A DNA stretch of 53,705 bases from Defluviicoccus sp. (lineage in GTDB: Bacteria; Pseudomonadota; Alphaproteobacteria; MPNO01): NCBI GenBank assembly GCA_022823775.1, contig JAJEHI010000124.1, positions 1-53,705 of the forward strand, given 5' to 3'. Below, piece by piece: positions 7,141-53,705 of the stretch. The notes beneath the pieces were generated by a model that did not search any database, was not told where the DNA came from, and worked only from the letters and a program-made list of their open reading frames with translations. Within the stretch, counting starts at the first letter, position 1; each line of letters opens with the position of its first letter. A program made the position numbers and the translations under genes.

Positions 7141-9186
7141 ATGCCCGCCGGCCAGCTCTCGCGCCTGTTCGATCCGCGCTCCATCGCCGTGGTCGGCGCT
7201 TCGGCGAACGAGGCGAAGCCGGGCTTCCAGATCCTGAGGGCGCTCGAGCCCTTCCACGGCGCGGTCCACGCGGTCAACCCGCGCGGCGGCACCGTCATGG
7301 GGCGGCCGGTCCATCGCAGCCTCGCCGATATCCCCGAGCCGGTGGACCTCGTCGCCCTCGTGCTGCCGGCACGGCATTCGCTGGCGGTGCTGGAGGAGGC
7401 CGCGGCGATCGGCGCGGGCGCCGCCTTCATGGTGAGCGGCGGGTTCGGCGAGACCGGCGCCGCCGGCGCGGCGCTGGAAGCCGACATTGCGAGCGCGTGC
7501 CGGGCCGGCGGGATCCGGCTTCTCGGGCCGAACACCTCGGGATTCCTGCGCCCTTCGCGCGGGCTTGCCTGCACTTTCCTGCCGGCGGCGGCGGAGCTCC
7601 GGCCCGGTCCGATCGGAATCGTCGCGCAATCGGGCGGGATCAACCTCACGCTTGCGATGATGGCCAATGCCGAAGGGCTGGGCGTCAGCCTGGCGGTCGG
7701 GCTCGGCAACGCGGCCGATCTGGGTATCGCGGAGACGCTGGACTATCTGGCGGCGGATCCGGAGACGCGGGCCATCGCGGTCCACCTCGAAGGGGTAGAG
7801 GACGGTAGGGCGGTGTTCGACGCGGTCAGAGCCGCGGTCCCGGCCAAGCCGGTGATCGCGCTCCCGGTCGGCAAGGCGGACCTCACGGGATTTGCCGAGT
7901 CGCATACCGGCGCGCTGATGGGAAACCACCGGCTGACGCGCTCGGCGCTCCGCCAGGCCGGCGCGGTGGTGGTGGAAACGCTCGACGACGCGCTCGACGC
8001 GGCCCGTGCGCTCGCCATGACGCGGCTCAAGCCCGCGCGCGATCCGGGGATCGGCGTGCTGACCGGGCAGGCCGGGCCGGGGCTGCTGATGACCGATACG
8101 CTCAGGCAGGCGGGCGTATCGGTGCCGGAGCTGGCGCCCGCGACGGTGGCCCGGATCGCGGGCGCGCTTCCCCCGCTCACCTACATGAGGAACCCGGTCG
8201 ACACCGGACGGCCCGGCGACAACCTCGGGGCCGTCATCGAAGCGCTCGCCGAGGACGGGCGAATCGACGCCATCCTCGCCTACGCGCTCATCGAGGGCGG
8301 CCCGCTGGATGTCGGCGGGGCCGCGCTCGAGGCGGCGGGCAAGACTTCGAAGCCGATGGTCTTCGCCACCGCGGGCGTTCCGTCCGAGACCGCGGGACCG
8401 GTCGACGCGCTTCGCCGCGCCGGCGTTCCGGTTTTTCTCGTCCCCGACCGGGCCGCGCGGGCGATGGCGGCCATGGTGGAGGACGCGCGCGGCCGGGCGA
8501 ACGCGGAACGGGACGGAACCGACGCCGCGCCGCCCGGGATCGCTCCGCCGCTCGCGGGCCCGGTGGACGAGGATGCGGCGAAGTCTCTCGTCTCCGCCTA
8601 CGGCATCGCGACGCCGAGACGGACGGTGTGCCGGAACCGCGCGGAGGCCGAAGCGGCGCGCGCGGCGATACCGGGCCCGGCGGTCGCGAAGGTTCTCGAC
8701 CCGGCGATACTCCACAAGTCCGATGTCGGGGGCGTGCATACCGGGATAGAAACCGCCGGGGCGCTGGACTCGGCGCTCGATGCCATCGACCGGATATCGA
8801 GCGCCGGCTACCTGATCGAGGAAATGGCGCCCGACGGCCTCGACCTCATAATCGGCGCGCGGAACGATGGGAGTTTCGGTCCGACCGTGCTGCTCGGCCT
8901 CGGGGGCACCGCGGCCGAGGCCATCGACGACGTCGCCGTGGCCCTGGCGCCGCTCGGCGGCGGCGAGGTCGACAGGATGATCGACGTGCTCGCCGGACGG
9001 GCGCTTTTCGGCCCTTGGCGCGGCGCCCCGGCCCCCGACCGCGCCGCCATCCGCGATGCCGTCGCGGGTATCGCCAGGCTGATCGTCGAACATCCGGAAA
9101 TCGCGGAGATCGACCTCAACCCCGTCAGGGCCCATGCCGGCGGCGCGATCGCGCTCGACGCGCTGATCGTTCTTCGGCGCGCGTGA
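7141..9186 (+). CDS. ADP-forming acyl-CoA synthetase (acetate-CoA ligase, ADP-forming; fused alpha-beta)
   Basis: A 681-residue single-chain NDP-forming acyl-CoA synthetase. The N-terminal CoA-binding Rossmann domain opens with SIAVVGASANEAKPG (residues 14-28). The succinyl-CoA-ligase-like domain follows, with the phosphorylated histidine in ESHTGALMG (His255). The C-terminal ATP-grasp domain carries AKVLDPAILHKSDVGGVHTG. The enzyme interconverts acyl-CoA + ADP + Pi and acid + ATP + CoA. The next two genes encode an indolepyruvate:ferredoxin oxidoreductase, which makes acyl-CoA from 2-oxo acids, so this enzyme may turn that acyl-CoA into acid plus ATP, as in archaeal amino-acid fermentation. 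No good ribosome site is visible before the ATG. Confidence 0.9.
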   Translation: MPAGQLSRLFDPRSIAVVGASANEAKPGFQILRALEPFHGAVHAVNPRGGTVMGRPVHRSLADIPEPVDLVALVLPARHSLAVLEEAAAIGAGAAFMVSGGFGETGAAGAALEADIASACRAGGIRLLGPNTSGFLRPSRGLACTFLPAAAELRPGPIGIVAQSGGINLTLAMMANAEGLGVSLAVGLGNAADLGIAETLDYLAADPETRAIAVHLEGVEDGRAVFDAVRAAVPAKPVIALPVGKADLTGFAESHTGALMGNHRLTRSALRQAGAVVVETLDDALDAARALAMTRLKPARDPGIGVLTGQAGPGLLMTDTLRQAGVSVPELAPATVARIAGALPPLTYMRNPVDTGRPGDNLGAVIEALAEDGRIDAILAYALIEGGPLDVGGAALEAAGKTSKPMVFATAGVPSETAGPVDALRRAGVPVFLVPDRAARAMAAMVEDARGRANAERDGTDAAPPGIAPPLAGPVDEDAAKSLVSAYGIATPRRTVCRNRAEAEAARAAIPGPAVAKVLDPAILHKSDVGGVHTGIETAGALDSALDAIDRISSAGYLIEEMAPDGLDLIIGARNDGSFGPTVLLGLGGTAAEAIDDVAVALAPLGGGEVDRMIDVLAGRALFGPWRGAPAPDRAAIRDAVAGIARLIVEHPEIAEIDLNPVRAHAGGAIALDALIVLRRA

Positions 9187-14335: not shown

Positions 14336-15150
14336 ATGCGCATCGAGGACTATCCGCCTCAGGAACCGCTGAGCGAGATCGGGCAGGCCTTCGCCGACGA
14401 GGTCATGTCGCGCGGCGAAGCCGTCTCGTCCGTGGACGTGCGGTACGGCGGCGATCCCTACCGGTCGATCGCGATTCAGGCGCCGGCGGTACCGAACGGC
14501 ACCGTGCTCGCCATGATGCACGGAGGCGGCTGGACATCGGGCTATAAGGAGCACCTCAACTTCGCCGGGCCGTGCGCGACCGCGCGCGGGGTCGTCTATG
14601 CCAGTATCGGCTACCGCCTTGCGCCCCAACATTTGTTCCCCGCCGGTTTCGAGGACTGCGCGGATGCCATCGCCTGGCTCTACCGCAATGTCGCGGAGAC
14701 GGGCGGCGATACCGGGCGTATTTTCGTGGGCGGTCACTCGGCGGGCGGTCACTACGCGGCGCTGCTCGCGGTGCGGACCGACTGGCAGGCGCCGCGCGGG
14801 CTGCCCGCCGACGTCATACGGGGTTGCCTGCCGATCTCCGGCGTCTTCCGCTTCGGCGAAGGGAGCGGGCTCAGCGCGCGGCCGCGGTTTCTCGGACCGG
14901 AGTCGAACGACCGCGCGGCGAGCCCGGTTCTCGACATCGGGGCGGCCCCGCCCTTCTTCATCGCCCACGGCGGCGAGGATTTCCCCCATCTGATGACCCA
15001 GGCGGAGGAAATGGAAGGCGCGCTCCGCCGGGCGGGCGGGGACGTTACGCGACTGCCCATGCCGGGGCGCAACCACTTCTCGGCGTGCTACGCCGCCGGC
15101 GAGGAAGACGGGCCTTGGGTCGGCCCCGCATTCGACTGGATCGCCGCGCA

Positions 15151-31360: not shown

Positions 31361-32440
31361 CTACTCCGCCGCGGCGAGGCGGCTGTCGGCGTCCGCGAAA
31401 CCGGGCGCGACCTCCTCCATGAAGCGCTGCATCTCGTCCTTCACCCGCCGGTGCGGCTTGAGGCCGACATTGAAGTAGAGGATCACCTCGGCGAAGCCCG
31501 CGTCCTCGACCTTCTTGAGGGTCTCGCCGATGGCGTCCGCGTCGCCGACCAGAATCGACTTGTCGGTCAGCCCTTCGGGCGTCATCGCCTTCATGTTTTT
31601 CACCATGTCGACGAAGTAGTGATAGGTCGGCGGCGCCTTCGCGATATCCTGCGGCAGGGCGTGGATGCAGCATTCCTGGAAGTAGCGGACCTGGCTGGTC
31701 CGCGCCGCGAGGTCTTCCTCCGGGCTGTCGGCGAAATGCGCGAAATAGCTGCAGATCAGCCGTCCCGGCGGGTTGCCGTGACTGGCGCAGGCCTCATGGT
31801 AGATCTCGGCCATCTCGCCCAGACCGCCGAACTGCATGGCGGCGGCGAAGGGCGCGACGACGACGTTGTGGCCGAGCCTGCCGGCGAGCTCGATCGACGG
31901 GCGCGAGAAGCATGCGACGTAGATCGGCGGCGGCTTCTGCACCGGCTTCGGTGTGATGGAGACGTTCTCGAAGTCGTAGAAACGGCCCTTGTGGGTGACC
32001 GGCCCGGTCTCGGTCCAGAGCCGGTAGAGGACGTCGAGCCCCTGGGCGAAGGCCTCGGTGTTGTTCTCGTAGGGCGCGTCGAGGGGGATGTACTCGCGCT
32101 TGTCGTAGCCCCGCCCGGTGGCGAAATCGACGCGCCCGTCGCTCAGAAGGTCGAGCGTCGCCCATTGCTCGGCGACCCGGATCGGATGGTGCAGCGGCAG
32201 CACGTTGACCGCCGGGGCCAGCCGGATGCGCTCGGTCACGGCGGCGACGTAACCGAGAACGATGTCGGGACACGAAAGCACGCCCAGTGTCGAGAAATGG
32301 TGTTCGCCGATCCAGGCCGAGTGCATGCCCACCGCCTCGGCATGGATCGCCTCCGCCGCGATGTCGCGGATATAGTCGTTCGCGGTGCGATCGTTGCCGA
32401 CATAGTGGTTGTCGCTGAGCGTGAAGTAACCGAACTTCAT
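31361..32440 (-). CDS. LLM-class flavin-dependent oxidoreductase (luciferase-like)
   Basis: The 359-residue TIM-barrel protein of the bacterial luciferase family has WIGEHHFSTLGVLSCPD, a hallmark GEHH segment near residue 45, then VNVLPLHHPIRVAEQWATLD and the flavin-site segment SDGRVDFATGRGYDKREY. It probably uses FMNH2 and O2 to oxygenate a small organic molecule; the reduced flavin could come from a partner such as the FMN reductase at 3926-4483, although that gene is distant. GGAGGGA lies 7-13 bases before the ATG. It follows tusA by 18 bases. Confidence 0.88.
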   Translation of the reverse strand: MKFGYFTLSDNHYVGNDRTANDYIRDIAAEAIHAEAVGMHSAWIGEHHFSTLGVLSCPDIVLGYVAAVTERIRLAPAVNVLPLHHPIRVAEQWATLDLLSDGRVDFATGRGYDKREYIPLDAPYENNTEAFAQGLDVLYRLWTETGPVTHKGRFYDFENVSITPKPVQKPPPIYVACFSRPSIELAGRLGHNVVVAPFAAAMQFGGLGEMAEIYHEACASHGNPPGRLICSYFAHFADSPEEDLAARTSQVRYFQECCIHALPQDIAKAPPTYHYFVDMVKNMKAMTPEGLTDKSILVGDADAIGETLKKVEDAGFAEVILYFNVGLKPHRRVKDEMQRFMEEVAPGFADADSRLAAAE

Positions 32441-32458
32441 GACCGTCCCTCCGGCGGC

Positions 32459-32683
32459 TCAACCGCCCTTCCGTATCGTGATGCGAAAAACCTCGCCCTC
32501 CTCGGCGGCATCGACGAAGGCATGCGACGCCGCTTCGCAAAACGCGCGAAAATCTTCCACGGCGGCCGGATCGGTCGCGAGCACCAGCAGTTCCGAACCG
32601 GGATCGAGCGCCTTGATCGCCTTGCGGGCGCGGAGGACCGGCAGCGGGCATTTGAGCCCCGTCGCGTCCAGGCGCTCGGTCAT
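32459..32683 (-). CDS. tusA: Sulfurtransferase TusA-family protein
   Basis: A 74-residue TusA/SirA-like protein with the invariant CPLPVLRARKAI motif (active Cys12) and the two-layer fold ending in FRITIRKGG. It carries persulfide sulfur for tRNA thiolation or molybdenum-cofactor sulfuration; the window also contains two molybdenum hydroxylases and moaB, so the latter role is possible. The start at 32683 gives the family's MTERLDATGLKCP and has GGAGGGGAGA upstream. A longer frame would read back into the tRNA region and is rejected. Confidence 0.9.
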   Translation of the reverse strand: MTERLDATGLKCPLPVLRARKAIKALDPGSELLVLATDPAAVEDFRAFCEAASHAFVDAAEEGEVFRITIRKGG

Positions 32684-32721
32684 TCTCTCTCCCCTCCGGG
32701 CCCGCCCACGCATGGTGCGAT

Positions 32722-32795
32722 TGGCTGGGGCGCCAGGAATCGAACCTGGGATCACGGGATCAAAACCCGTTGCCTTACCGCTTGGCTACGCCCCA
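32722..32795 (-). tRNA. tRNA-Gln (anticodon UUG)
   Basis: Read on the minus strand, the sequence folds as a complete cloverleaf: acceptor TGGGGCG at 32795-32789 pairs with CGCCCCA, discriminator G and an encoded CCA follow (32724-32722). The anticodon stem ACGGG/CCCGT encloses TTTTGAT, giving anticodon TTG. The T arm has GGTTCGAATCC. It lies between ispE and tusA on the same strand, 25 bases after the ispE stop. Confidence 0.97.
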
Positions 32796-32820
32796 GCAAC
32801 AGGCCAGGGGCAAGATAGGT

Positions 32821-33729
32821 TCAATCGGTTGGACCCGCAATAACGCCCGCCCCGGCGGACGTTCCGAGTTGCGTGGCGCGCACCCACCACCCGGGACGGG
32901 AACCCGCGATCCGCCCGGCCGCCTCGCTTGCGGTCTTCTCCGACGGAAACAGCCCGAAACAGGTCGGCCCGCTGCCCGACAGACGGGCCATGAGGCAGGA
33001 CGGCGCCGTCCGGATCGCATCGAGCGCCGCGTCGATCTCGGGACGGATGCGCCGCGCGAACGGCGCAAGGTCGTTTCGCGCCCCGGACAAAGCCCCCGCC
33101 AGCGCCATCACGTCGGCAGCGCCGGCGTCGAAGGACATCGGCGCGGAAAACGGACCCTCGCGGGCGGCGAACACCTGGGCGGTGGGAAGCGGCACCATGG
33201 GATTGACCAGCACCGTCGGCACGTCGGGCAGCGGCGGCGCGGGCGAGATCCGTTCGCCGATGCCGCGCACGATGGCGGGACGCCCGTAGAGACAGGCTGG
33301 AACGTCCGCGCCGAGAGCCAACGCGATCGCGCGCAACCGGTCCGCCGGGACCGACAAGCGCCACAGCGCGCTCAACGCCCGCAGCGCGGCCGCGGCGTCG
33401 GCCGATCCGCCACCGATGCCGGCGGCCACGGGAAGCGCCTTGTGCAACCGGATCCGGGCGTTGGGCCGGATGCCGGCTTCCGCGGCAAGCGCGCGCGCGG
33501 CCCGCGCCACCAGGTTTTCGCCGCCGGCGTCCAGCGCGGCGGCGAACGGCCCGTCGATCTCGAGCGTGAGGCCTTCGTCCGGCCGGACCTCGATGCGGTC
33601 GTGGACCCCGGCAAAGGCCACGAGGGTTTGGAGCAAGTGGTAGCCGTCGGCGCGTCGGCCCGTTACATGGAGGAACAGATTGATCTTGGCCGGTGCCTCG
33701 ACGCCGATAATCGCCGCGGCGGCCGTCAT
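32821..33729 (-). CDS. ispE: 4-diphosphocytidyl-2-C-methyl-D-erythritol kinase
   Basis: This 302-residue GHMP kinase phosphorylates CDP-methylerythritol in the MEP route to isoprenoids. The N-terminal APAKINLFLHVTGRRADGYH (residues 12-31) is diagnostic of IspE. The ATP-binding glycine loop is LPVAAGIGGGSADAAAAL (99-116), the catalytic Asp is probably in LGADVPA (residue 142), and the third GHMP motif is LSGSGPTCFGLF. It starts 7 bases after the TPR-protein stop, so the two are co-transcribed. This is a core gene of normal length. Confidence 0.96.
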   Translation of the reverse strand: MTAAAAIIGVEAPAKINLFLHVTGRRADGYHLLQTLVAFAGVHDRIEVRPDEGLTLEIDGPFAAALDAGGENLVARAARALAAEAGIRPNARIRLHKALPVAAGIGGGSADAAAALRALSALWRLSVPADRLRAIALALGADVPACLYGRPAIVRGIGERISPAPPLPDVPTVLVNPMVPLPTAQVFAAREGPFSAPMSFDAGAADVMALAGALSGARNDLAPFARRIRPEIDAALDAIRTAPSCLMARLSGSGPTCFGLFPSEKTASEAAGRIAGSRPGWWVRATQLGTSAGAGVIAGPTD

Positions 33730-33736
33730 GGGACGA

Positions 33737-35590
33737 TCAGCGCGCGTTGCCGCCGGCCTTCGGCGCGGAAAGGCCCCGGGCGATCTTGCCCTCGATGATC
33801 GCTACCAGGTCGGGCTCCGGGTCGAGGTTGAGGGCGCGGCGCCACTGAAAGGCCGCTTCCTTGCGGCGCCCGACCTGCCAGTAGGCGTCGCCCAGGTGAT
33901 CGTTTACAGTGGGGTCCAGCGGCTCCAGCTCCGCCGCGCGCTCCAGCTTCTCCACCGCGCCTTCATAGTCGCCCATCCGGTACAGCGCCCAACCCAGGCT
34001 GTCCACGATGGCCCCGCTCTGGGGCTCGAGCTCGACCGCACGTTCGATCATCCTGCGCGCGTCGTCGAGCTTGATCCCCTGGTCGACCCATGAATAACCG
34101 AGATAGTTGAGAAGATAGGGCTCGTCCGGCGAGAGCTCGAGCGCGGCGAGCAGGTCCTTCTCCGCGCGGGGCCAGTCCTTGGACCGTTCGAGCGCGATAC
34201 CGCGCGAGAAAAGCAGTCTCCAGTGCCGCGGTTCGACCTTCTCGAGTCTTTGGATCGCGGCGTCGTAGGCCTCCACCGACTCCGAAAACCGCTTCTCGTT
34301 GCGGAACAGGTCGCCGAGCGTCGCCAGAGCGTCCGTCCGCTCCGGCCGCTCCGCGGCCATTCGGCGCAGCGCCCGGATCGCTTCGTCGTCCCTGCCGAGC
34401 CTCGAGAGAGCGCCCGCGCGCCGAAGCCTGGCCGACCAGGACAACGGCGAAGCCCTGTCGACCCGCGCATAGGCCCTTATCGCGCTCTCGTCGTATCCCG
34501 CCGATTCGAAAATCCGCCCGACGAGAACGCGGGCGGACGGAAAGTCGGGTCGCAGGTCGAGCGCCAGCTGCCCGTAAATCAGGGCCAACTCCGTCGATCT
34601 CGCCCTCATGGACAGGCTGGCGGCGTTGAAGAACACCTCGGCCGCACCCTCGATACCGTCGGCCACGACCCGTTCTGGCGACTTGCCCGCAAGGAGTTCC
34701 GCGAGCTCGCCTTCGATCAGGGAAGAACGGTCGCGGTCGGCGAGGAAAGCGCGGAAATGCCGTTCCGCTTCGGCGGCGTCGCCGTTCCGCCGGAAGAACG
34801 AGCCTATCGCCTGGACGAAACGGGCCGAGGGCTGCCGCATCTCTTCCGCGGCTGCGAGATAATGACGCCTCGCCTCTTCCGGCCGGTCCGCGAGGTCCAG
34901 GATCAGAGCGGTATGAAGGCTGCGGAAAGCTTCCGTATTGCGATTGCCGCCCGAATTGCGGAGCGTGTCGATAGCCGCATCGTGGCGTCCCGATCCGACT
35001 TCGGCCCAGGCCGAAAGCAGCGGGCCGTAAAACGGGTCGGGGCCCCGGGGCCGGATGGCCGACAGTTTCGCCCGAGCGGAGTCGAACCTGGCCGCCTTGA
35101 AATCGCCCACCGCCAGGGACAGGCTGGCGAGCGGCGCGTCTTTCTCGATCGCCAGCAGCCGGCGCGCGATCGTCCGCGCCGGATCGGCTTGCCCGCTCGC
35201 CAGCTTCGCAATCAGGGCGCGCCTCAACAGGCCCGGCTCGGGAGGCGGCACCTTGAGGGCATCGCTCATATACCGCGCCGCGGCGACGAAATCGCGCTGC
35301 CTGAATGCGTGGTGCCCGGCCAGATAGCTGCCCAGCTCCAGTGCGAAGCCGGCGGTCGCGCCATCCGGCGAGGTCTTCCCCGAACCGGCCGGGGTCTCCG
35401 CCGGCTGAGCGCGACTGGCGGGCGGCGCCAGCGCGGCCGCCGCCGCGAGCGCCAGGACGAAGCATGCCGCCCGCGATACGCCCCCGGCCGGCGACGTTCC
35501 GCCGGACGGAAATACCCATCCCGTCGCACGCCGTACGAGCGTCGCGGCCCTGGTCGCCCGATGGAATCGTGGCATTCGTGCGCGCGTCAT
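33737..35590 (-). CDS. Exported tetratricopeptide-repeat protein
   Basis: A 617-residue protein with an N-terminal export signal (hydrophobic CFVLALAAAAALAPPASRAQ about residues 43-62, after an unusually long basic n-region) and TPR repeats throughout. The C-terminal repeats are clear: LNYLGYSWVDQGIKLDDARR, VDSLGWALYRMGDYEGAVEK and VNDHLGDAYWQVGRRKEAAF. Proteins of this kind sit beside ispE or ETF-QO in many alphaproteobacteria and are presumed periplasmic or outer-membrane scaffolds. I took ATG at 35590, with GGGA upstream; other in-frame ATGs at 35623 and slightly downstream change only the leader. Confidence 0.85.
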   Translation of the reverse strand: MTRARMPRFHRATRAATLVRRATGWVFPSGGTSPAGGVSRAACFVLALAAAAALAPPASRAQPAETPAGSGKTSPDGATAGFALELGSYLAGHHAFRQRDFVAAARYMSDALKVPPPEPGLLRRALIAKLASGQADPARTIARRLLAIEKDAPLASLSLAVGDFKAARFDSARAKLSAIRPRGPDPFYGPLLSAWAEVGSGRHDAAIDTLRNSGGNRNTEAFRSLHTALILDLADRPEEARRHYLAAAEEMRQPSARFVQAIGSFFRRNGDAAEAERHFRAFLADRDRSSLIEGELAELLAGKSPERVVADGIEGAAEVFFNAASLSMRARSTELALIYGQLALDLRPDFPSARVLVGRIFESAGYDESAIRAYARVDRASPLSWSARLRRAGALSRLGRDDEAIRALRRMAAERPERTDALATLGDLFRNEKRFSESVEAYDAAIQRLEKVEPRHWRLLFSRGIALERSKDWPRAEKDLLAALELSPDEPYLLNYLGYSWVDQGIKLDDARRMIERAVELEPQSGAIVDSLGWALYRMGDYEGAVEKLERAAELEPLDPTVNDHLGDAYWQVGRRKEAAFQWRRALNLDPEPDLVAIIEGKIARGLSAPKAGGNAR

Positions 35591-44306: not shown

Positions 44307-47300
44307 ATGAATTTGTCGGGCACGGACAACGGCGTTGCCATCGTCGGCTACAGCCACCGCATGCCGGGTGGCATTCGGTCGGATTCCGATTTCTGGACCC
44401 TGCTGACCGAACGCGAGATCGTCCAGGAGCCGATCGCGGACCGCTACGGAAAAGGTCACCGGCCCATCGGCGAATTCTCGGGGCCGGGACGGCTTGCGAG
44501 CCCTTACGAGGGGCTGATTCGCGACGAAGACGAGTTGCTCTTCGACCGTTCCTTCTTCGGTATGTCCCACAACGAATTGAGGCAGACCGAACCGCAGGTA
44601 AGGATGCTGCTCAATTGCGCGTGGGAAGCCATCGAACACGTCGGTTGGAACCTCCACTCGCTGCGCAACAGCCCCACCGGAGTTTTCATCGGGTCGCAGG
44701 TTCCGGCCGTGTCCAACTGGCGGCCGCAGCACGGCGTCACCGAGAATTCCGTGTCCGGCATCAGCCTCGCCATGCTGGCCAATCGGATCTCCTACCACTT
44801 CAACCTCATGGGGTCGTCGGTTACCTATTGCACGGCCTGTTCCGCCGGCCTGACCGCTCTGCACGCGGCGATGAACGCGCTCGCGTGCGGCGATTGCGAC
44901 CAGGCGCTCGTCGGCGCCGTCACATATCTGGGCAGCGCCAGGATGAGCAGCGGCTTCAACCTCATGGGGGTTATCAGCCCGGACGGCACCTGCCACTCGT
45001 TCGATGCGGAAGCCAACGGCTACATGCGCTCCGAGGGATCGTTCGTCTTCGCCGTCAAGCCTTTGCCAGCAGCCGAGCGGGACGGAGATCCCATCTACGC
45101 AGTGATCGAGTCGACGGCGGTGAACGCGGCGGGGACGGCGGACGGCACGGCCGGGCTCGCGCCGGGCCGGTACATCAGCGCACCGACGCGTCATTCCCAG
45201 GTCCTGCTGATGCGCGAGGCCGCAGCCCGTGCCGGTCGCACGCCATGCGAGTTCGACTACATCGAGGCGCACGCTACCGGAACCTCGGTCGGAGACCCCA
45301 TCGAGGGTAACGCCATCGCGGAGGCGTTCGGCGGTTTCGAGCGGGAGGCCCCGCTGCGGGTTTCCAGCGTCAAGAGCAATGTCGGGCACATGGAGGCCGC
45401 CGCCTTTCACTGCGCTCTGCTCAAGGTCGTCCTGATGATGCGGCGGCGCAACTTTGCGCCGACGTCGAAGAGCTTTCAGGTGCCGAATCTGGAGATCGAC
45501 TTCGACTCCTGCCCGATGCGGGTACAAACGGAATGCGAGCCGTTCCCCGAACATCCGGTCGTCATGGGCATCAACTCGTTCGGCTTCGGCGGAGCCAACG
45601 GGCACTGCGTGGTGCGCGAGTACCGACCGTCACGACCCAGGCTCTGGTCGGTGCCTCCGGCGCCCGACGCGGGCTTCATGATCCCGCTGTCGGCACGCAC
45701 GCCCGATGCGCTCGTGGAAAGCGCGCGACGCATGCGGGGGACGCTCGACGCGCATCGGCCGGACCTTTACGCGCTCGCCGCCAATCTAAGCCGCCGCCGC
45801 ACCCATTTCGCCGCGCGGGCGGCATTCGCGGCACGCAGTCTGCCCGATCTGGCCGATGCGCTGGATGGTTTCGCGGAAGAGGGCGCGCCTGTCGGCACCG
45901 CGGAGGAGGGCGAGCGACGGCTGGTCATGGTGTTCGCCGGGCAGGGGACGCAGTGGGCCGGCTGCGGGCGCGATCTCTACGAGGCTCACCCCGTCTTCCG
46001 CCGTGCCGTCGACGCCATTGAGGGGCATTGGCGGGAGCACGCGGACACTTCACTGCGCGAGGCTTGCTTCGAAACCGAGCAAGAAGAACTCGACGAGGTT
46101 CAACTCGCCCAGCCCGCCATCTTCATGATTCAGTGCGCGCTGGTGGAATTGTTCAAGACGTGGGGCGTTTATCCCGACTGCGTGGTGGGACACAGCTCCG
46201 GCGAGGTGGCCGCGGCCTACGCCTCGGGCGCACTCTCTCTCGCCGACGCGACGCGGCTGGTCTTCCATCGCGCCACCCTGCAGCAGCGCGCGTCGGGCTC
46301 CGGCCGCATGCTGGCCATCGGACTCGATCGGCCGGGCGTCGAAAAGTTGCTGGATACCTCGGACGTTCCTTTCCGACTCGATGGCGACCGGCCAGTCCAG
46401 GTCGAGATCGCCTGCGAAAACGCACCGGCCAACACCGTCATCTGCGGTCGCGAAGGCAGCCTGCGCCCTGTCATGGATGAACTGGACCGGCGAAATCTTC
46501 AGCACCGGCTAATCCCGGGGAACATCGCCTTTCATTCCCGGGCGATGGACCCGATCGAGGACGATGCGCTGGAGGCATTCGCCTTTCTCGACGACATCTC
46601 TTTCGACGCGGACGTTCCCTTCGTCTCGTCGGTGACGGGTGTCGGGACGAGACGGCTGGACAGTGCCTATTGGTGGTCGAACATTCGCCAGCCGGTCCGT
46701 TTCGCGGAGGCGATGGAAACCGTCAAGCGCGACCACCGGCCGAATGCGGTGCTGGAACTGGCACCGCATTCGGCGCTGCAACCCCTCGTCGCGCAATGCG
46801 TGGAAGACATGTCGCCTCCGCCCGTCTCCATTCCGACGCTCATGCGGGACCGGGATACGCGCATCGGCTTTCTCGAAGCCCTGGGCGCCCTCTTCAGGAC
46901 CGGCGTGCCCCTGGACTTCGCCGCCCAGTATCCGCGGCCCGAGCCCATTGTCGACCTGTTGCCCGGACATCCGAGGGAGGAGCAGAAGACCGTCGACGAC
47001 AAGCTGGACGACGAATTCTTCCTGCAACAAGGCGAATACGCGCACGGACCGTTGGTCGGGCACCGGATTCCCGGCGACCATCTCCTGTTCGAAGCGCGAC
47101 TGTCGGAAAGAGCTTTTCCGTGGCTGGCGGAGCACCGGGTTCATCATGCTTCGATCATGCCGGCCGCCGGCTATATCGAGCTGGTTCTGGAGGCTCTCGG
47201 CGGCGTTCCTGTCCATTTCGACGTGATTGAGTTCCTGCAGCCCTGCCCCATCCCGAAAACGCCTGTCAGGCTGCAGACGTCGCTGTATCCGGTCGCCAAT

Positions 47301-50300
47301 TCCGCCGGCGAATACACTTTCTCGATTTCGACGCTGCCTTACGAGGTCGACGCGAAGAGCGAACTGCACTGTCGCGGAAAAGTGCGCCTGATCGACGTTC
47401 GACCCGAGATGGATGCGCCGGAGACCCTCGCGGATATCGATGCCTCCGGCTACGAAGCTCTTCGCTACGCGGCTGACGACGAGATCTACGAACGCTTCGA
47501 GGTGATTCTCGGGGATACGTACCAGTACGGCCCCCAGTTCAGGAACATTCGGAGGCTCCGACGCGAGCCCGAGACGGGCCGCCTTCTGCTGGATGTCGGG
47601 GTGGACGAGGCACTTTGGACGGACGCCCGAAACGAAGGCTATGTTTCCTTCCCACCTCTCCTCGACGGCGGACTGCAATCGTTTCTCTACGACCTGATGC
47701 TCGGCGCCGATCGTTTCGCCATTCCTCTTCGGGCCGAGAACGTGACGTTCCTGGGCGCGCCGACGGTGCCGCGCCTCGTCTGCCAACTGACCTATCCGGG
47801 CGGCAAACGGTACGAAGTCGACGACAAGGGCCAATATGACGTTCCGAACGGCGAGTGGGTTTCCGGCAGGCTGAACTTCTACGACGACGCAACCGGCGCC
47901 CTCTCCCTTCATGTCGGGAAATACATATCCTTTATCTCCTACCCTCGACGGGTCGACCTGCCGCACAGCAAGCATCGCATCGTCTGGCAGCCCAAATACA
48001 TCTCCAACGGCGCCGCAATTGCCGATCGGTTGCCGGAGGGCGAGATCGAGCCATCCGGCTTGCTTGCCGCCCTTGAGCGCTCCGGTGACGGCGATGTGCG
48101 TGTCTGCCACGCCATGGAGTTCGCCGGTTCCAGAGAACCGGAGCAGACCGTACTTCAGCGCTGCGTCCAGTATCTCTCGCTTGAGGAGACGCAGACCGAG
48201 TTCTGGCTGGTCGGCAACGATGAGGAGGGCGCCCGGACATACTACGACGCCTTCCACGCCCACGATGCCGCGCTACGCTTCGATTGCATCGAACCCGACG
48301 GGCGGCAGGCGTCCACGCTCGATACGAGCCTGCCGCGCCGGCACGCAGCGGATATCCTGTTCCTCCACCAGGATGAGGCCGCGTTCACGTCCGAAGACTG
48401 GCGATTCTGGCGGGATGTGGCCATCGCGGGTGGGCTGGCGCTCGTTTCTCATGAAGACGGCGCGGTTGTGGAGCCCGACGGCGGGTGGACCACGCTGCGC
48501 GCGGGCGGTTGCGCGACGCTGTTCCAGGCGCCGCCCTTCCGCGCGGACGGGCTGGATCCGGGACCGCTGCCGGCTCCCCGATGGGTGCTGGGCGATCGCG
48601 CCAGTCTGGCGAGAGCCTGGACATCCCTGCTCGACGACGCTGCGGTACATCCGATCTCCTCGGAGGCCGTCGCCTCGGGCAACCCCTTCGAGCCCGAGGC
48701 GTGGCCGGAGGTCGCGGACGTGCAGGCGATCGATTTCTTCTTCGATTGGAATCCAGAGGATCCCACGGGCGAAAAGGCGGTCTTTCAGCTCGTCGCCTTC
48801 ATCCAGTCGCTGGTTCCCTACAGGATCGAAAACGCCGGTTGCCGGTGCCGCGTCACGGTGGTGACCCGAAAGGCGGCCATGGACGCCGAGGATGCGCGCG
48901 GAAGCGCGCTTTGGGGCGCGGTGCGCAGCATGGAGGTGGAGATCGCCGAAGAAGCCAGGCTCGATTTCCGTCTCGTGGACCTCGGCACCGCCGATGACCT
49001 GGAGACGCTGGCGTGGCTTGCCCGGCACGATCTCCGCGACCGCGAGCTCGCGGTGCGCACCGGCCAGTTGTGGGTGCCGCGCGTCGTAAGCGATCGGGAA
49101 CTCTTCCCGCGCGTGCCCGCCGACGAAGATCCGCCCTACCGGCTCTTCCTGGAGAACGCCGGACAGATTGCCGGTCTTCAGATGAAGACATACGATCCGC
49201 CTGCGCCGGGACCGCATCATGTGGAGATCGACGTCTCCGCCGCGGCGCTCAACTTCCGCGACGTCATGGTAACCCTGGGGCTGCTGCCGGCATTGGCCTA
49301 TGAGCGTTCCGCGCTCGGCCGCGAGGTCGGGATGGAGGCGAGCGGCGTGGTGCGCCGCGTCGGCATGGCGGTGGACGGGTTCGAGCCCGGCGATGAGGTG
49401 GTCTTCGTCGACGGCGGCTGTATCGCCAATCGTACGGTGGTGGGTCAGCACCGCGTCTTCCCCAAGCCCGCGGACCTGAGCATGGAGGAAGCGGCAGCGT
49501 CACTCTCGGTCTACGTCACCGCCTACTACGCCCTGATCCACCTGGCCCGGCTGCGCAAGGGGCAACGAGTCCTCATTCATTCCGCGATGGGCGGCATCGG
49601 ACAGGCCGCGATCGCCCTCGCCAACGACGTGGGCGCGGAGATCTACGCCACGGCGGGTAGCGAGAGCAAACGCACGCAACTTCTGGGACTAGGCGTCAGG
49701 GCAGCCTTCGATTCCCACAGCGAGGAGTGGTTCGACGGGCTGATGAAGGCGACCGGCGGCCAGGGCGTCGATGTCGTGCTGAACTCGCTGGCCGGCCGTC
49801 ACGTTCCGCTCTGCCTCGAGGCCCTGCGGGCTGGCGGCTGGCACTGCGAGATCGGCAAGGTCGACATCTATGCCGACAGCGCTCTCGGCCTCCGCGTTTT
49901 TCGCAAGAACCTGCGGTTCGCGGCCCTCGACCTCGACCGCCTGATGGTCGACGACCCTTACCTCTCGCGCGAGCTCTCCGAAGCCTGCCTCGACCTGCTC
50001 GATCGCGGCGTGGTGCCGCCATTGCCGGTCACCGTCTTTCCATACGGAGACTACGCGAAGGCGCTCCGCCTCATGACCTCCGGCCAGCATCAGGGAAAAC
50101 TGGTGCTCAAGGCGCCGCTCGAGTCCGCCCATTCCGACTTCCCGATCGACGATCGGAGGCCCCTGCTGAACCCGGACGGGACCTACCTCGTGACCGGCGG
50201 CCTGGGCGGCTTCGGCCAGCGGTTATTGCCCTACCTCGTGACCGCCGGAGCCCGCCACCTGACCTTGTTGGACCGCGATCCCGAACGCCGCCGCAGCGAG

Positions 50301-51356
50301 AACTGGCTGCGACAGTCCACGACCCTCGCGGACATAGGACAAGGGGTCGAGATCGACATCGTTCCGGGTGACGTAGCGGTCGAGGCGGACGTGCGCCGCT
50401 GCGTCGCCGACGTGAAGAGGCCGATTAAGGGGGTGTTCCATCTCGCCGGTATCTTGGACGACTGCCTGTTGGCGGACCTGTCGCCGGAGTCCGTCGCCCA
50501 GGTGTTCGCACCCAAGGCGCAGGGCGCGCTCAATCTCCATCGTGCCACGGCCGGCCTCGCGCTCGATCACTTCGTCATGGTGTCTTCCACGTCATCGACC
50601 TTCGGCAATCCCGGCCAGATCAATTACAGCGCGGCCAACGCGTATCTGGACGGCCTCGCCGCCTGCCGGCGCCAGCAGGGGCTGCCGGCCCTCTCCTACA
50701 ACCTGGCAGCGGTCGCGGACGCCGGCATGGCCGCGAGCAATCTCGGCATCCTGCGCCTGATGAAGGCCGCCGGCATGCCGCCCGTGAGCAGCTATTGCGC
50801 GATCGCCAACCTCGACTACGCCCTCCGCACGATGGGCGACGGCGACCACCTGATCACCGCGCTTTTCAAGCGCGTATTGTGGAGTGTCGATTCCGCCGAC
50901 TACATGCGAACGGGCCGCCTGATGAGCAATCAGGATGCGTTCGACATCGGCTCCGACGAGCTGCTGACACTCGATGGCGTCGTGGCGCAGATCGCCGCCA
51001 AGGTCGCCGAGCTCTGCGGCCACGACGAGGGCGGCACGGATGAGCCTCTCTCCAGTTTCGGACTCAACTCCATCTCCGTCGCCGAGCTGGGGGCGTTCAT
51101 ACAGAGCGAGTTCAACTTTCAGGCGAGCGCGCTGGAGCTGATGACCACGGCCTCTTGCCGGTCGCTGGCGGAGGCCATCGTGTTCGGCACGAAAACGGAC
51201 GAGGAGGCCGAGGCCGAGGAGGACGGCGACCCGATCGGCGATGCACCCCTGGCGGCGCTGCGCTGCGTTCGCCGCAAGCCGTCGCCATTCGCCAGCTCGC
51301 CCGAGGACCATTTCCCGCCGGCGCCCTGTTCCGGCGCGAGTGCCGAGACGGCCTAG
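44307..51356 (+). CDS. Single-module fully reducing type I polyketide/fatty-acid synthase (KS-AT-DH-core-ER-KR-ACP)
   Basis: The 2349-residue enzyme has these domains. Ketosynthase, about 8-430: catalytic Cys178 in YCTACSAGL, His322 in EAHATGT and His361 in KSNVGHMEAA. Acyltransferase, about 539-834: Ser630 in GHSSGE, and IAFHS at 743, closer to the malonyl-type HAFH. Dehydratase, about 911-1190: His943 and Asp1120 (LLDGGLQS). A 400-residue core without recognised motifs. Enoylreductase, about 1610-1938: LIHSAMGGIGQAA. Ketoreductase, about 1956-2180: GGLGGFG, Ser2094, Tyr2107, and LDD, which suggests B-type stereochemistry. Carrier protein: Ser2255 in GLNSIS. No thioesterase or methyltransferase motif was seen. 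A full reductive loop suggests iterative synthesis of a saturated chain. The next gene, a thioester reductase, could release it. Confidence 0.94.
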   Translation: MNLSGTDNGVAIVGYSHRMPGGIRSDSDFWTLLTEREIVQEPIADRYGKGHRPIGEFSGPGRLASPYEGLIRDEDELLFDRSFFGMSHNELRQTEPQVRMLLNCAWEAIEHVGWNLHSLRNSPTGVFIGSQVPAVSNWRPQHGVTENSVSGISLAMLANRISYHFNLMGSSVTYCTACSAGLTALHAAMNALACGDCDQALVGAVTYLGSARMSSGFNLMGVISPDGTCHSFDAEANGYMRSEGSFVFAVKPLPAAERDGDPIYAVIESTAVNAAGTADGTAGLAPGRYISAPTRHSQVLLMREAAARAGRTPCEFDYIEAHATGTSVGDPIEGNAIAEAFGGFEREAPLRVSSVKSNVGHMEAAAFHCALLKVVLMMRRRNFAPTSKSFQVPNLEIDFDSCPMRVQTECEPFPEHPVVMGINSFGFGGANGHCVVREYRPSRPRLWSVPPAPDAGFMIPLSARTPDALVESARRMRGTLDAHRPDLYALAANLSRRRTHFAARAAFAARSLPDLADALDGFAEEGAPVGTAEEGERRLVMVFAGQGTQWAGCGRDLYEAHPVFRRAVDAIEGHWREHADTSLREACFETEQEELDEVQLAQPAIFMIQCALVELFKTWGVYPDCVVGHSSGEVAAAYASGALSLADATRLVFHRATLQQRASGSGRMLAIGLDRPGVEKLLDTSDVPFRLDGDRPVQVEIACENAPANTVICGREGSLRPVMDELDRRNLQHRLIPGNIAFHSRAMDPIEDDALEAFAFLDDISFDADVPFVSSVTGVGTRRLDSAYWWSNIRQPVRFAEAMETVKRDHRPNAVLELAPHSALQPLVAQCVEDMSPPPVSIPTLMRDRDTRIGFLEALGALFRTGVPLDFAAQYPRPEPIVDLLPGHPREEQKTVDDKLDDEFFLQQGEYAHGPLVGHRIPGDHLLFEARLSERAFPWLAEHRVHHASIMPAAGYIELVLEALGGVPVHFDVIEFLQPCPIPKTPVRLQTSLYPVANSAGEYTFSISTLPYEVDAKSELHCRGKVRLIDVRPEMDAPETLADIDASGYEALRYAADDEIYERFEVILGDTYQYGPQFRNIRRLRREPETGRLLLDVGVDEALWTDARNEGYVSFPPLLDGGLQSFLYDLMLGADRFAIPLRAENVTFLGAPTVPRLVCQLTYPGGKRYEVDDKGQYDVPNGEWVSGRLNFYDDATGALSLHVGKYISFISYPRRVDLPHSKHRIVWQPKYISNGAAIADRLPEGEIEPSGLLAALERSGDGDVRVCHAMEFAGSREPEQTVLQRCVQYLSLEETQTEFWLVGNDEEGARTYYDAFHAHDAALRFDCIEPDGRQASTLDTSLPRRHAADILFLHQDEAAFTSEDWRFWRDVAIAGGLALVSHEDGAVVEPDGGWTTLRAGGCATLFQAPPFRADGLDPGPLPAPRWVLGDRASLARAWTSLLDDAAVHPISSEAVASGNPFEPEAWPEVADVQAIDFFFDWNPEDPTGEKAVFQLVAFIQSLVPYRIENAGCRCRVTVVTRKAAMDAEDARGSALWGAVRSMEVEIAEEARLDFRLVDLGTADDLETLAWLARHDLRDRELAVRTGQLWVPRVVSDRELFPRVPADEDPPYRLFLENAGQIAGLQMKTYDPPAPGPHHVEIDVSAAALNFRDVMVTLGLLPALAYERSALGREVGMEASGVVRRVGMAVDGFEPGDEVVFVDGGCIANRTVVGQHRVFPKPADLSMEEAAASLSVYVTAYYALIHLARLRKGQRVLIHSAMGGIGQAAIALANDVGAEIYATAGSESKRTQLLGLGVRAAFDSHSEEWFDGLMKATGGQGVDVVLNSLAGRHVPLCLEALRAGGWHCEIGKVDIYADSALGLRVFRKNLRFAALDLDRLMVDDPYLSRELSEACLDLLDRGVVPPLPVTVFPYGDYAKALRLMTSGQHQGKLVLKAPLESAHSDFPIDDRRPLLNPDGTYLVTGGLGGFGQRLLPYLVTAGARHLTLLDRDPERRRSENWLRQSTTLADIGQGVEIDIVPGDVAVEADVRRCVADVKRPIKGVFHLAGILDDCLLADLSPESVAQVFAPKAQGALNLHRATAGLALDHFVMVSSTSSTFGNPGQINYSAANAYLDGLAACRRQQGLPALSYNLAAVADAGMAASNLGILRLMKAAGMPPVSSYCAIANLDYALRTMGDGDHLITALFKRVLWSVDSADYMRTGRLMSNQDAFDIGSDELLTLDGVVAQIAAKVAELCGHDEGGTDEPLSSFGLNSISVAELGAFIQSEFNFQASALELMTTASCRSLAEAIVFGTKTDEEAEAEEDGDPIGDAPLAALRCVRRKPSPFASSPEDHFPPAPCSGASAETA

Positions 51357-51430: not shown

Positions 51431-53059
51431 ATGGCCAAACCAGGAGTCGCTGACCGAGCGGTACCCCCTCTTGTCGGCGAGTTACCGCCCCGATGCCGGG
51501 CGGACGTGGACGAGCTACGTCGCGTCGTACATACCACGATCGCGTGCGAGGCGCCGGCGGACGCTGTATCGCCAAACGAATTTCAAGAGGTTCTGCTGAC
51601 CGGAGCGACCGGTTTCGTGGGGCGCTTCCTGCTGCGCGCGCTTCTGCGCCAGAACGACCGGCTGATCGTGCACTGCCTGATCCGTGCCGAGAGCGCCGAG
51701 CACGGGTTCGCGCGATTGCGGGACGCGCTGGAGCAGGCGGAAATCCGTGAGGAGATTGCCGAAGAGCGACTGCGCGTGGTGCCCGGAGACTCCTCCCGCG
51801 AGCGCTTCGGTCTGAGCGAGTCTGAGTTCGGCGGGCTCTGTCAGCGGGTCGACGCGGTCTATCATGTTGCCGCCAATACGCGGCTCGTTCTGTCCTATGC
51901 GGATATACGCGAAACGAACGCGCTCGGCCTGCGCCCCGTGCTCGAGCTTTGCCTGAGGACCCGCCTCAAGCATCTGTTTCACTTCTCCACCATGGGCATT
52001 TTCCCGGAATATTTTTGCGACTTTTCGAGGGAGTACGGCCAGAGCCGCATCGACGATCAGATGCAGCCCGATCTCGCCGCCATGAAGAAGGCTTTTCCGT
52101 TCGGCGTCGTCGGGTATCCCTGGAGCAAGCTGGTGGCGGAGCAAGGCGTGCTGTTCGCTCGGGCAGCCGGCGTGCCGATCGCGATCTTTCGCCTTCCGCA
52201 AATGGGTCTTTCCAGCACGGGATATGCGCAGGCGAACGACTTTCCGACACCCCTGTTCGCCGCGGCGACACAGGTGGAAATGGCGCCGCATGGCTTTTCC
52301 CTGCAGAGAAACGCCGAACCGGTCGACACGGTCAGCGAAATCTGCGCGGCGATCTCGCTCAACCCCGACCGCCGCTTCACCGTCTATCATTGCTGCGATC
52401 CAGAGCCCCCATACGAAGATCTGGAGGTCGCCGAGCTGGGCTATTATTGGAAAAGCGTTCCCTACGCATCCTTCAGGCGCTCGTGTCAGGCCCTCCGCGA
52501 CGGTTCTCCGTTGCGCGGCCAGTGGGTGCTCGTCGACCATTTTGCGCCTTACTGGTTCAGCGAGGACAGGGCCCGCAGCACGGTGCCGATCGGCGATCGC
52601 GCCATCCGGGAAGACTGCCCCCACCCGATAAAGTGGCCCGCATTGCTGATCCGCCATGCGCGCTCCTATGACTGGATCAGGCGTCATCGGGACGGATGGC
52701 CCTACCCTGTTCCGCATGGGCGCCTGGACTTTGACGGTCTAATGGGACAGGCCGAAAGGTACGCCGAGCGCATGGGCGTCCCCTTCGAGCGAACCTACCC
52801 CGAGTGGATGCGCACCGGTCTCCAGCAACTCGTGCAGGCGCTGAAATCGCCGGAGGCCGGACTGCAGGAAACGCGGCTCAGCCACATCGTCTACGGGCTG
52901 ACGCGCGCCCTCCGCAGCAACGCGGCGCTCGCCCGCGAAAGGCAGCGGCACCCGGAGATCGAACGGGAGAAGGTCGAGCGGCCCGTCTTCATCGTCGGCA
53001 TCAACCGAACGGGCACGACTTTTCTGCATCGCCTGTTATCGCGCGACAGCCGCTTCTAG
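51431..53059 (+). CDS. Thioester reductase fused to a sulfotransferase N-terminus, ending at an in-frame TAG
   Basis: The frame encodes 542 residues up to TAG (53057-53059). Residues about 50-400 are a thioester-reductase-type extended SDR: NADPH motif LLTGATGFVG (55-64), VYHVAANTRL, HFSTMGIF and the YxxxK pair in GYPWSKLVAE (Tyr229, Lys233). It would reduce a carrier-bound acyl thioester to aldehyde or alcohol. After a linker, a PAPS sulfotransferase begins: VFIVGINRTGTTFLHRLL (519-536) is the 5'-phosphosulfate loop. The stop comes six residues later, in the middle of the fold, while the same frame remains open beyond it. It starts 74 bases after the synthase and is probably co-transcribed. 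Confidence 0.88.
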   Translation: MAKPGVADRAVPPLVGELPPRCRADVDELRRVVHTTIACEAPADAVSPNEFQEVLLTGATGFVGRFLLRALLRQNDRLIVHCLIRAESAEHGFARLRDALEQAEIREEIAEERLRVVPGDSSRERFGLSESEFGGLCQRVDAVYHVAANTRLVLSYADIRETNALGLRPVLELCLRTRLKHLFHFSTMGIFPEYFCDFSREYGQSRIDDQMQPDLAAMKKAFPFGVVGYPWSKLVAEQGVLFARAAGVPIAIFRLPQMGLSSTGYAQANDFPTPLFAAATQVEMAPHGFSLQRNAEPVDTVSEICAAISLNPDRRFTVYHCCDPEPPYEDLEVAELGYYWKSVPYASFRRSCQALRDGSPLRGQWVLVDHFAPYWFSEDRARSTVPIGDRAIREDCPHPIKWPALLIRHARSYDWIRRHRDGWPYPVPHGRLDFDGLMGQAERYAERMGVPFERTYPEWMRTGLQQLVQALKSPEAGLQETRLSHIVYGLTRALRSNAALARERQRHPEIEREKVERPVFIVGINRTGTTFLHRLLSRDSRF

Positions 53060-53705
53060 GCATTGAGGCGCTACGAGTTGACCGATCCGGTGCTGCCCGA
53101 CGGCGAGTATGCCACTGTGGCAGGCACGGTCGAAGATCCGCGCCGCGCCTATGCGGAGGAACTGTTAGGCGCGACCAATGTCGTCGATACGCTCGCCGGG
53201 CTCCACCGTACCGATATCGACGAGCCCGAGGAGGACTTGTGGATCCTCTGGCTCACGTTCTCGACTTGGATATTTGCGTCCGCGTATCACGTACCGACCT
53301 ATGGCCGTTGGCTGGCCGAGACCGAGTCACGCAACGCTTACGCCCATCACCGACGCGTCATGCGGCACTTCACCTGGCAGCGGCGCAGGCGCGAGCCGCG
53401 AAGCCGGCGGCACTGGCTGTTGAAGATGCCCTTCCACCTCATGGAATTGGAGGTGCTGTTGGAGACCTACCCGGATGCCCTCTTCATCCAGACCCATCGC
53501 GATCCCGTCGAGTTCATGGGCTCTTGGAACAGCATAGTGGAGCGGATACGAGGCTTTTCCACCGAGGCGCGGCCGCCGTTCGAAACCGGCGCCGAGCAGC
53601 TGGCGTTCATGAGCGGCATGCTCAACGGCGCCATGCGGTTCCGCGCCTCCAATCCCGCGCTTGAAGAGCGCTGGGTCGACGTTCGCTATACCGATTTGGT
53701 CGACG
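53060..53705 (+). pseudogene. Continuation of the sulfotransferase domain after the TAG, cut by the window edge
   Basis: In the same frame as the thioester reductase gene, 215 codons stay open from the TAG to the right edge. The translation continues the sulfotransferase fold: ALRRYELTDPVLPDGEYA, then RHWLLKMPFHLMELEVLLE, and the 3'-phosphate-binding motif QTHRDPVEFMGSWNSI. So the TAG falls between the two cofactor-binding motifs. It probably replaces one codon, for example TGG (Trp) by a single base change. Possibilities are a nonsense mutation, a sequence error, readthrough, or two separately translated pieces (a TTG follows at 53063). The label pseudogene is provisional. Confidence 0.7.

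Follow-up and report, generated by a model that had tools for sequence, protein, structure and literature searches.

Organisation of the locus

The window, that is, the whole stretch of 53,705 nt that was analysed, corresponds to the complete contig C183 of a 4.8-Mb assembly of 198 contigs, and its 3' end carries two adjacent genes of a swf cluster (Table 1). This sponge widespread fatty acid synthase cluster was described from a Plakortis simplex metagenome and from Poribacteria WGA-A3; it contains swfA, swfB, which codes for a reductase plus sulphotransferase of 832-839 aa, and the radical SAM gene swfC, and an alkyl sulphate was the authors' guess for its product (PMC3908369). The name swfB was assigned here on the basis of domain order, length and neighbours as described in that report. 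A mono-modular KS-AT-DH-ER-KR-ACP synthase of swfA type lies directly before swfB, and a radical SAM protein of swfC type (B12-binding, Radical_SAM and DUF4070) is encoded on contig C46, convergent with swfB. The same convergent arrangement was observed in the related loci L004, L005, L008 and L011. Reductase and sulfotransferase share one polypeptide of about 830-840 aa when an in-frame TAG is read through; the product as terminated has 542 aa. Judging from this cluster, the host, an uncultivated alphaproteobacterium, is probably sponge-associated.

Table 1. Positions of the swf genes, domains and associated features in the window
Feature	Position	Strand	Description	Basis or remark
swfA	44307..51356	+	Mono-modular KS-AT-DH-ER-KR-ACP synthase	Pfam; homologous to the gene upstream of relatives' swfB; domain order as SwfA in PMC3908369
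swfB	51431..53705	+	Thioester reductase + sulfotransferase, frame cut at codon 543	3' end on contig C46 (L146 8142 to 8500, minus strand)
NAD_binding_4 (thioester reductase)	51596..52339	+	Residues 56-303, intact, 5' of the stop	Pfam, E 1.5e-49; an intact relative's model shows a PKS/NRPS R-domain fold
Sulfotransfer_3	52982..53704	+	From residue 518, TAG inside	Pfam hits on either side of the stop and spanning it; an intact relative's model shows an STF1-like fold
5'-phosphosulfate loop	52997..53023	+	GINRTGTTF, residues 523-531	Translation
In-frame TAG	53057..53059	+	Mostly TGG (Trp) in homologues	Frame reading and homologue alignment
Mosaic tract, ~263 nt	53563..53705, ending on C46 (L146 ~8240-8500, minus strand)	+	Like L005/L116, not L004	Starts within 2 nt of the contig overlap

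Several other features of the cluster were noted. The C-terminal tail of SwfA carries, after the ACP, a motif conserved in the window (51250-51353) and in relatives, RRxPSxFASPPEDHFPPA, which is possibly a docking peptide for SwfB. Degraded swfA-like fragments were found beyond swfC (L146 4144-4341; L004 6998-7294), which suggests remains of a lost second swfA copy.

Clusters of swf type have been reported across sponge species and in MAGs of Nitrospirota, Latescibacterota and Acidobacteriota, several phyla inside one sponge being carriers (PMC9426513). Our collection of swfB homologues, with 43-95% identity across loci L004-L083, was scattered over a wider range than the phyla of that report, as judged from MAG names: Alpha- and Gammaproteobacteria, Nitrospirales, Latescibacterota, Acidobacteria, Gemmatimonadetes, Rhodothermales, Binatia, Caldilineaceae, Verrucomicrobiae and Bacteroidota. 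This broad distribution suggests transfer between symbionts.

Interruption of the swfB frame

The frame opened by the ATG of swfB ends after 542 aa at TAG (codon 543), 12 residues past the phosphosulfate loop, and the same frame stays open for another 215 codons up to the end of the window. Once contig C46 is added it comprises 831 codons and ends with TGA at codon 832, which is the length found in the nearest relatives, and TAG is its sole in-frame lesion. Because an open frame of 288 codons has a chance probability of ~4e-4 under the local composition, and because 76 homologues could be aligned across codon 543, none of them with a stop at the site, this continuation is not fortuitous. Frame and homologous continuation thus bear out the original prediction on two points, namely that a 542-codon frame is cut by TAG and followed by 215 further codons, and that no frameshift needs to be invoked.

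Domain searches placed the stop within a single domain. Positions 1-23 of Sulfotransfer_3 were matched 5' of TAG (Pfam, E 1e-5) and positions 67-196 were matched 3' of it (E 5e-22), while a match over positions 1-196 was obtained with TAG read through (E 1.6e-33). Residues G523, R526, G528, T529 and T530 of the phosphosulfate loop were invariant among 42 homologues. Structural assignments were based on a confident AlphaFold model of the SwfB of an intact relative (mean pLDDT 91.7, pTM 0.88). There, the second sulfotransferase strand (542-544) contains residue 543, so that nearly the whole domain lies 3' of the stop. The complete fold of a PAPS-dependent sulfotransferase, with the 5'-phosphosulfate loop and the 3'-phosphate-binding part, is encoded by the continuous frame; the TAG-ended product keeps only the loop.

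No second swfB copy was found in the genome; the one other Sulfotransfer_3 gene, a stand-alone gene on contig C51, is not a swfB. ORFs 31451-32818 and 32770-33798 of the window, which are fused in relatives, were also considered as another broken gene. Alignment suggests that these are antisense shadows, both being opposite to minus-strand genes around a tRNA-Gln. In-frame stops in other ORFs of the window likewise appear to be due to overlapping shadow ORFs.

Codon 543 among homologues and age of the stop

Among the 76 homologous loci covering the site, codon 543 was TGG (Trp) in 67, an Arg codon in six, a Gln codon in two and a Gly codon in one, and it was never a stop. The nearest relative, L004 (identical in sequence to L115; 95% identical to the window gene and from the same genus), also has TGG. 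TAG and TGG differ by one transition, and the comparison with L004, using L006 as outgroup, placed the TGG to TAG change on the window's own branch. The single TGG to TAG change that had been proposed for this codon therefore agrees with the homologue data. Since Arg, Gln and Gly also occur, Trp543 is common but not essential, and any damage would stem from truncation rather than from the loss of this residue itself.

Substitutions accumulated on the window's branch since its split from L004 were counted on both sides of the stop. Codons 543-710 showed 7 synonymous and 7 non-synonymous changes, and codons 1-542 showed 18 and 15, respectively (Fisher P = 1.0). The proportion of synonymous changes after the stop was 50% versus a neutral expectation of ~26% (P = 0.047), on small numbers. 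The codons past the stop have thus been constrained for most of the time since the split, which implies a stop that either arose recently, is not real or is segregating.

The reading we favour, as rather probable, is that swfB carries a recent single-base nonsense allele, Trp to amber, by which the sulfotransferase is lost and the reductase retained. The constraint observed 3' of TAG weighs against this reading in one respect, as it would be equally expected from an error or from a segregating allele.

Contig end and possible assembly artefact

The main alternative is an assembly or consensus artefact, the TAG of the MAG being an incorrect base or coming from a minority strain, while swfB is intact in the population. 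This is a possibility to be taken seriously, though we consider it unlikely on balance. The final 141 bases of the window, from 53565, are exactly identical to an end of C46. Several records of relatives are named k141_..., and this overlap presumably reflects a graph branch left by a k=141 assembler. An incorrect join of C183 and C46 was rejected on the basis of the orientation of swfC and of its 98% identity to L004. The sequence is mosaic at this point: a tract that starts at 53563 (nt 2133 of swfB) is 90-98% identical to L005/L116 and 73-81% to L004, with L004-like sequence on both flanks, resuming on C46. Either gene conversion or an assembly chimera may account for this tract. The contamination of the genome was estimated by the tool at 4.75%.

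These observations lend weight to an artefact, as the assembly broke 650 nt 3' of TAG, at a branch within the mosaic tract, and the gene was evidently hard to assemble. The co-occurrence of swf-like clusters from several phyla in one sponge (PMC9426513) would make their conserved stretches difficult to assemble, and the constraint persisting 3' of the stop points in the same direction. On the other hand, the mosaic tract does not begin until 500 nt 3' of TAG, the stretch that contains TAG shares 97% identity with the nearest relative and shows no other oddity, and the change is a simple transition. A lone read error, moreover, rarely survives assembly at k=141.

Nonsense alleles of swfB were also found on contigs whose names indicate high coverage values, which further argues against an artefact: L068 has an in-frame TAG at codon 231, where alignment A1 shows an invariant Trp (coverage 416.6), and L029 has one at codon 644 (coverage 334.9). 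In addition, frame breaks were observed in L061 (at about codon 714) and L075, and a partial duplication of the 3' end in L013. With lesions in these five other loci out of 80, damaged swfB genes are no rarity among MAGs. It is conceivable that these cases reflect a recurrent and selected switch, by which sponge symbionts lose the sulfotransferase of swfB through nonsense mutation, some lineages then making unsulfated lipids. This proposal, which counts the window and the two other TAG-bearing swfB genes among ~80 loci, is regarded as very improbable.

Decoding of TAG

Amber readthrough or recoding, with TAG decoded as Trp or another residue and full-length SwfB being made, had been raised as an alternative. 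The open and constrained frame after TAG would fit such decoding, as would the in-frame TAG codons of the two further, unrelated swfB genes. However, RF1 is intact in the genome, no CUA anticodon was present among its 43 tRNA hits (all read with ARAGORN), and the single Trp tRNA has anticodon CCA. TAG is moreover a common terminator in the window: it ends 8 of 28 long ORFs, chosen mechanically and including swfA and swfB itself, some of which may be shadow ORFs, and it is the stop of swfA here and in seven related loci. Finally, the TAG codons at positions 543, 231 and 644 differ and their hosts are unrelated, which argues against a conserved recoding site. None of the marks of an amber-recoded gene, whether tRNA(CUA), RF1 loss or a conserved recoding site, was thus encountered, and readthrough is judged very improbable.

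Some results on the translation apparatus deserve mention. A general release factor search returned one gene only; a loss of RF1 was discarded when family-specific searches identified this gene as RF1. The assembly yielded no RF2 (prfB) gene, which the four genus-mates do have; as TGA ends ORFs of the window more often than either other stop, an assembly gap is the probable reason. A tRNA with a two-base anticodon, reported by ARAGORN at 15024-15104 on the plus strand inside a long ORF, is probably a false positive.

The other alternative of the original prediction, a split enzyme whose two functional polypeptides are parted by the stop and assemble into a sulfotransferase, found the least support and is hardly credible: start-like codons do exist 3' of TAG (TTG 53063, GTG 53090 and GTG 53117), but no convincing ribosome-binding site was seen by eye before them, none of the 76 homologues covering codon 543 is divided there, and according to the model the cut would part the phosphosulfate loop from the remainder of one globular domain.

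Expected consequences of the probable nonsense allele

If the recent Trp to amber change at codon 543 is a real allele of the organism, as we consider likely, translation is expected to end at this TAG, given the presence of RF1. The truncated SwfB would keep the reductase and the linker and, from the sulfotransferase, only the first strand, the phosphosulfate loop and the first helix. Such a protein may be expected to release the acyl chain of SwfA reductively and without sulfating it, this chemistry being predicted. No polar effect on swfC is expected, since this gene is convergent and not downstream in the same operon.

The importance of the observation is low, as what is seen in swfB, a known gene of a described cluster, is either an ordinary nonsense mutation or a wrongly assembled base, and it does not look like a novel form of codon reading. 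In practice, a sulfated product should be predicted from swf clusters in MAGs only after lesions have been looked for. If the allele is real, the lineage would amount to a naturally occurring knock-out of the sulfotransferase of SwfB. It could then be useful for finding the swf product, by comparison of lipids from sponges with intact and broken copies.

Comparison with known systems

Like the continuous swfB frame of the window, published SwfB combines reductase and sulfotransferase on one protein, follows a mono-modular PKS and is accompanied by a radical SAM SwfC (PMC3908369). Two differences are apparent. In the window, a TAG interrupts the swfB frame at codon 543, and SwfC follows SwfB at higher coordinates on the published fosmid, whereas the two genes are convergent here. 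The N-terminal half of SwfB resembles, in fold and sequence, the R domains of PKS/NRPS systems, such as those of myxalamid MxaA (4u7w, 4w4t) and of an S. coelicolor PKS (8v1x). These structures represent R domains of PKS/NRPS lines, whereas in SwfB a sulfotransferase is attached to the R domain and both form a protein of their own. For the sulfotransferase half, the closest solved relatives retrieved by fold search were mycobacterial STF1 (2zq5, 28% identity) and STF9 (2z6v, 25% identity). Both were solved as stand-alone sulfotransferases, in contrast to the SwfB domain, which is located here behind a reductase and is truncated.
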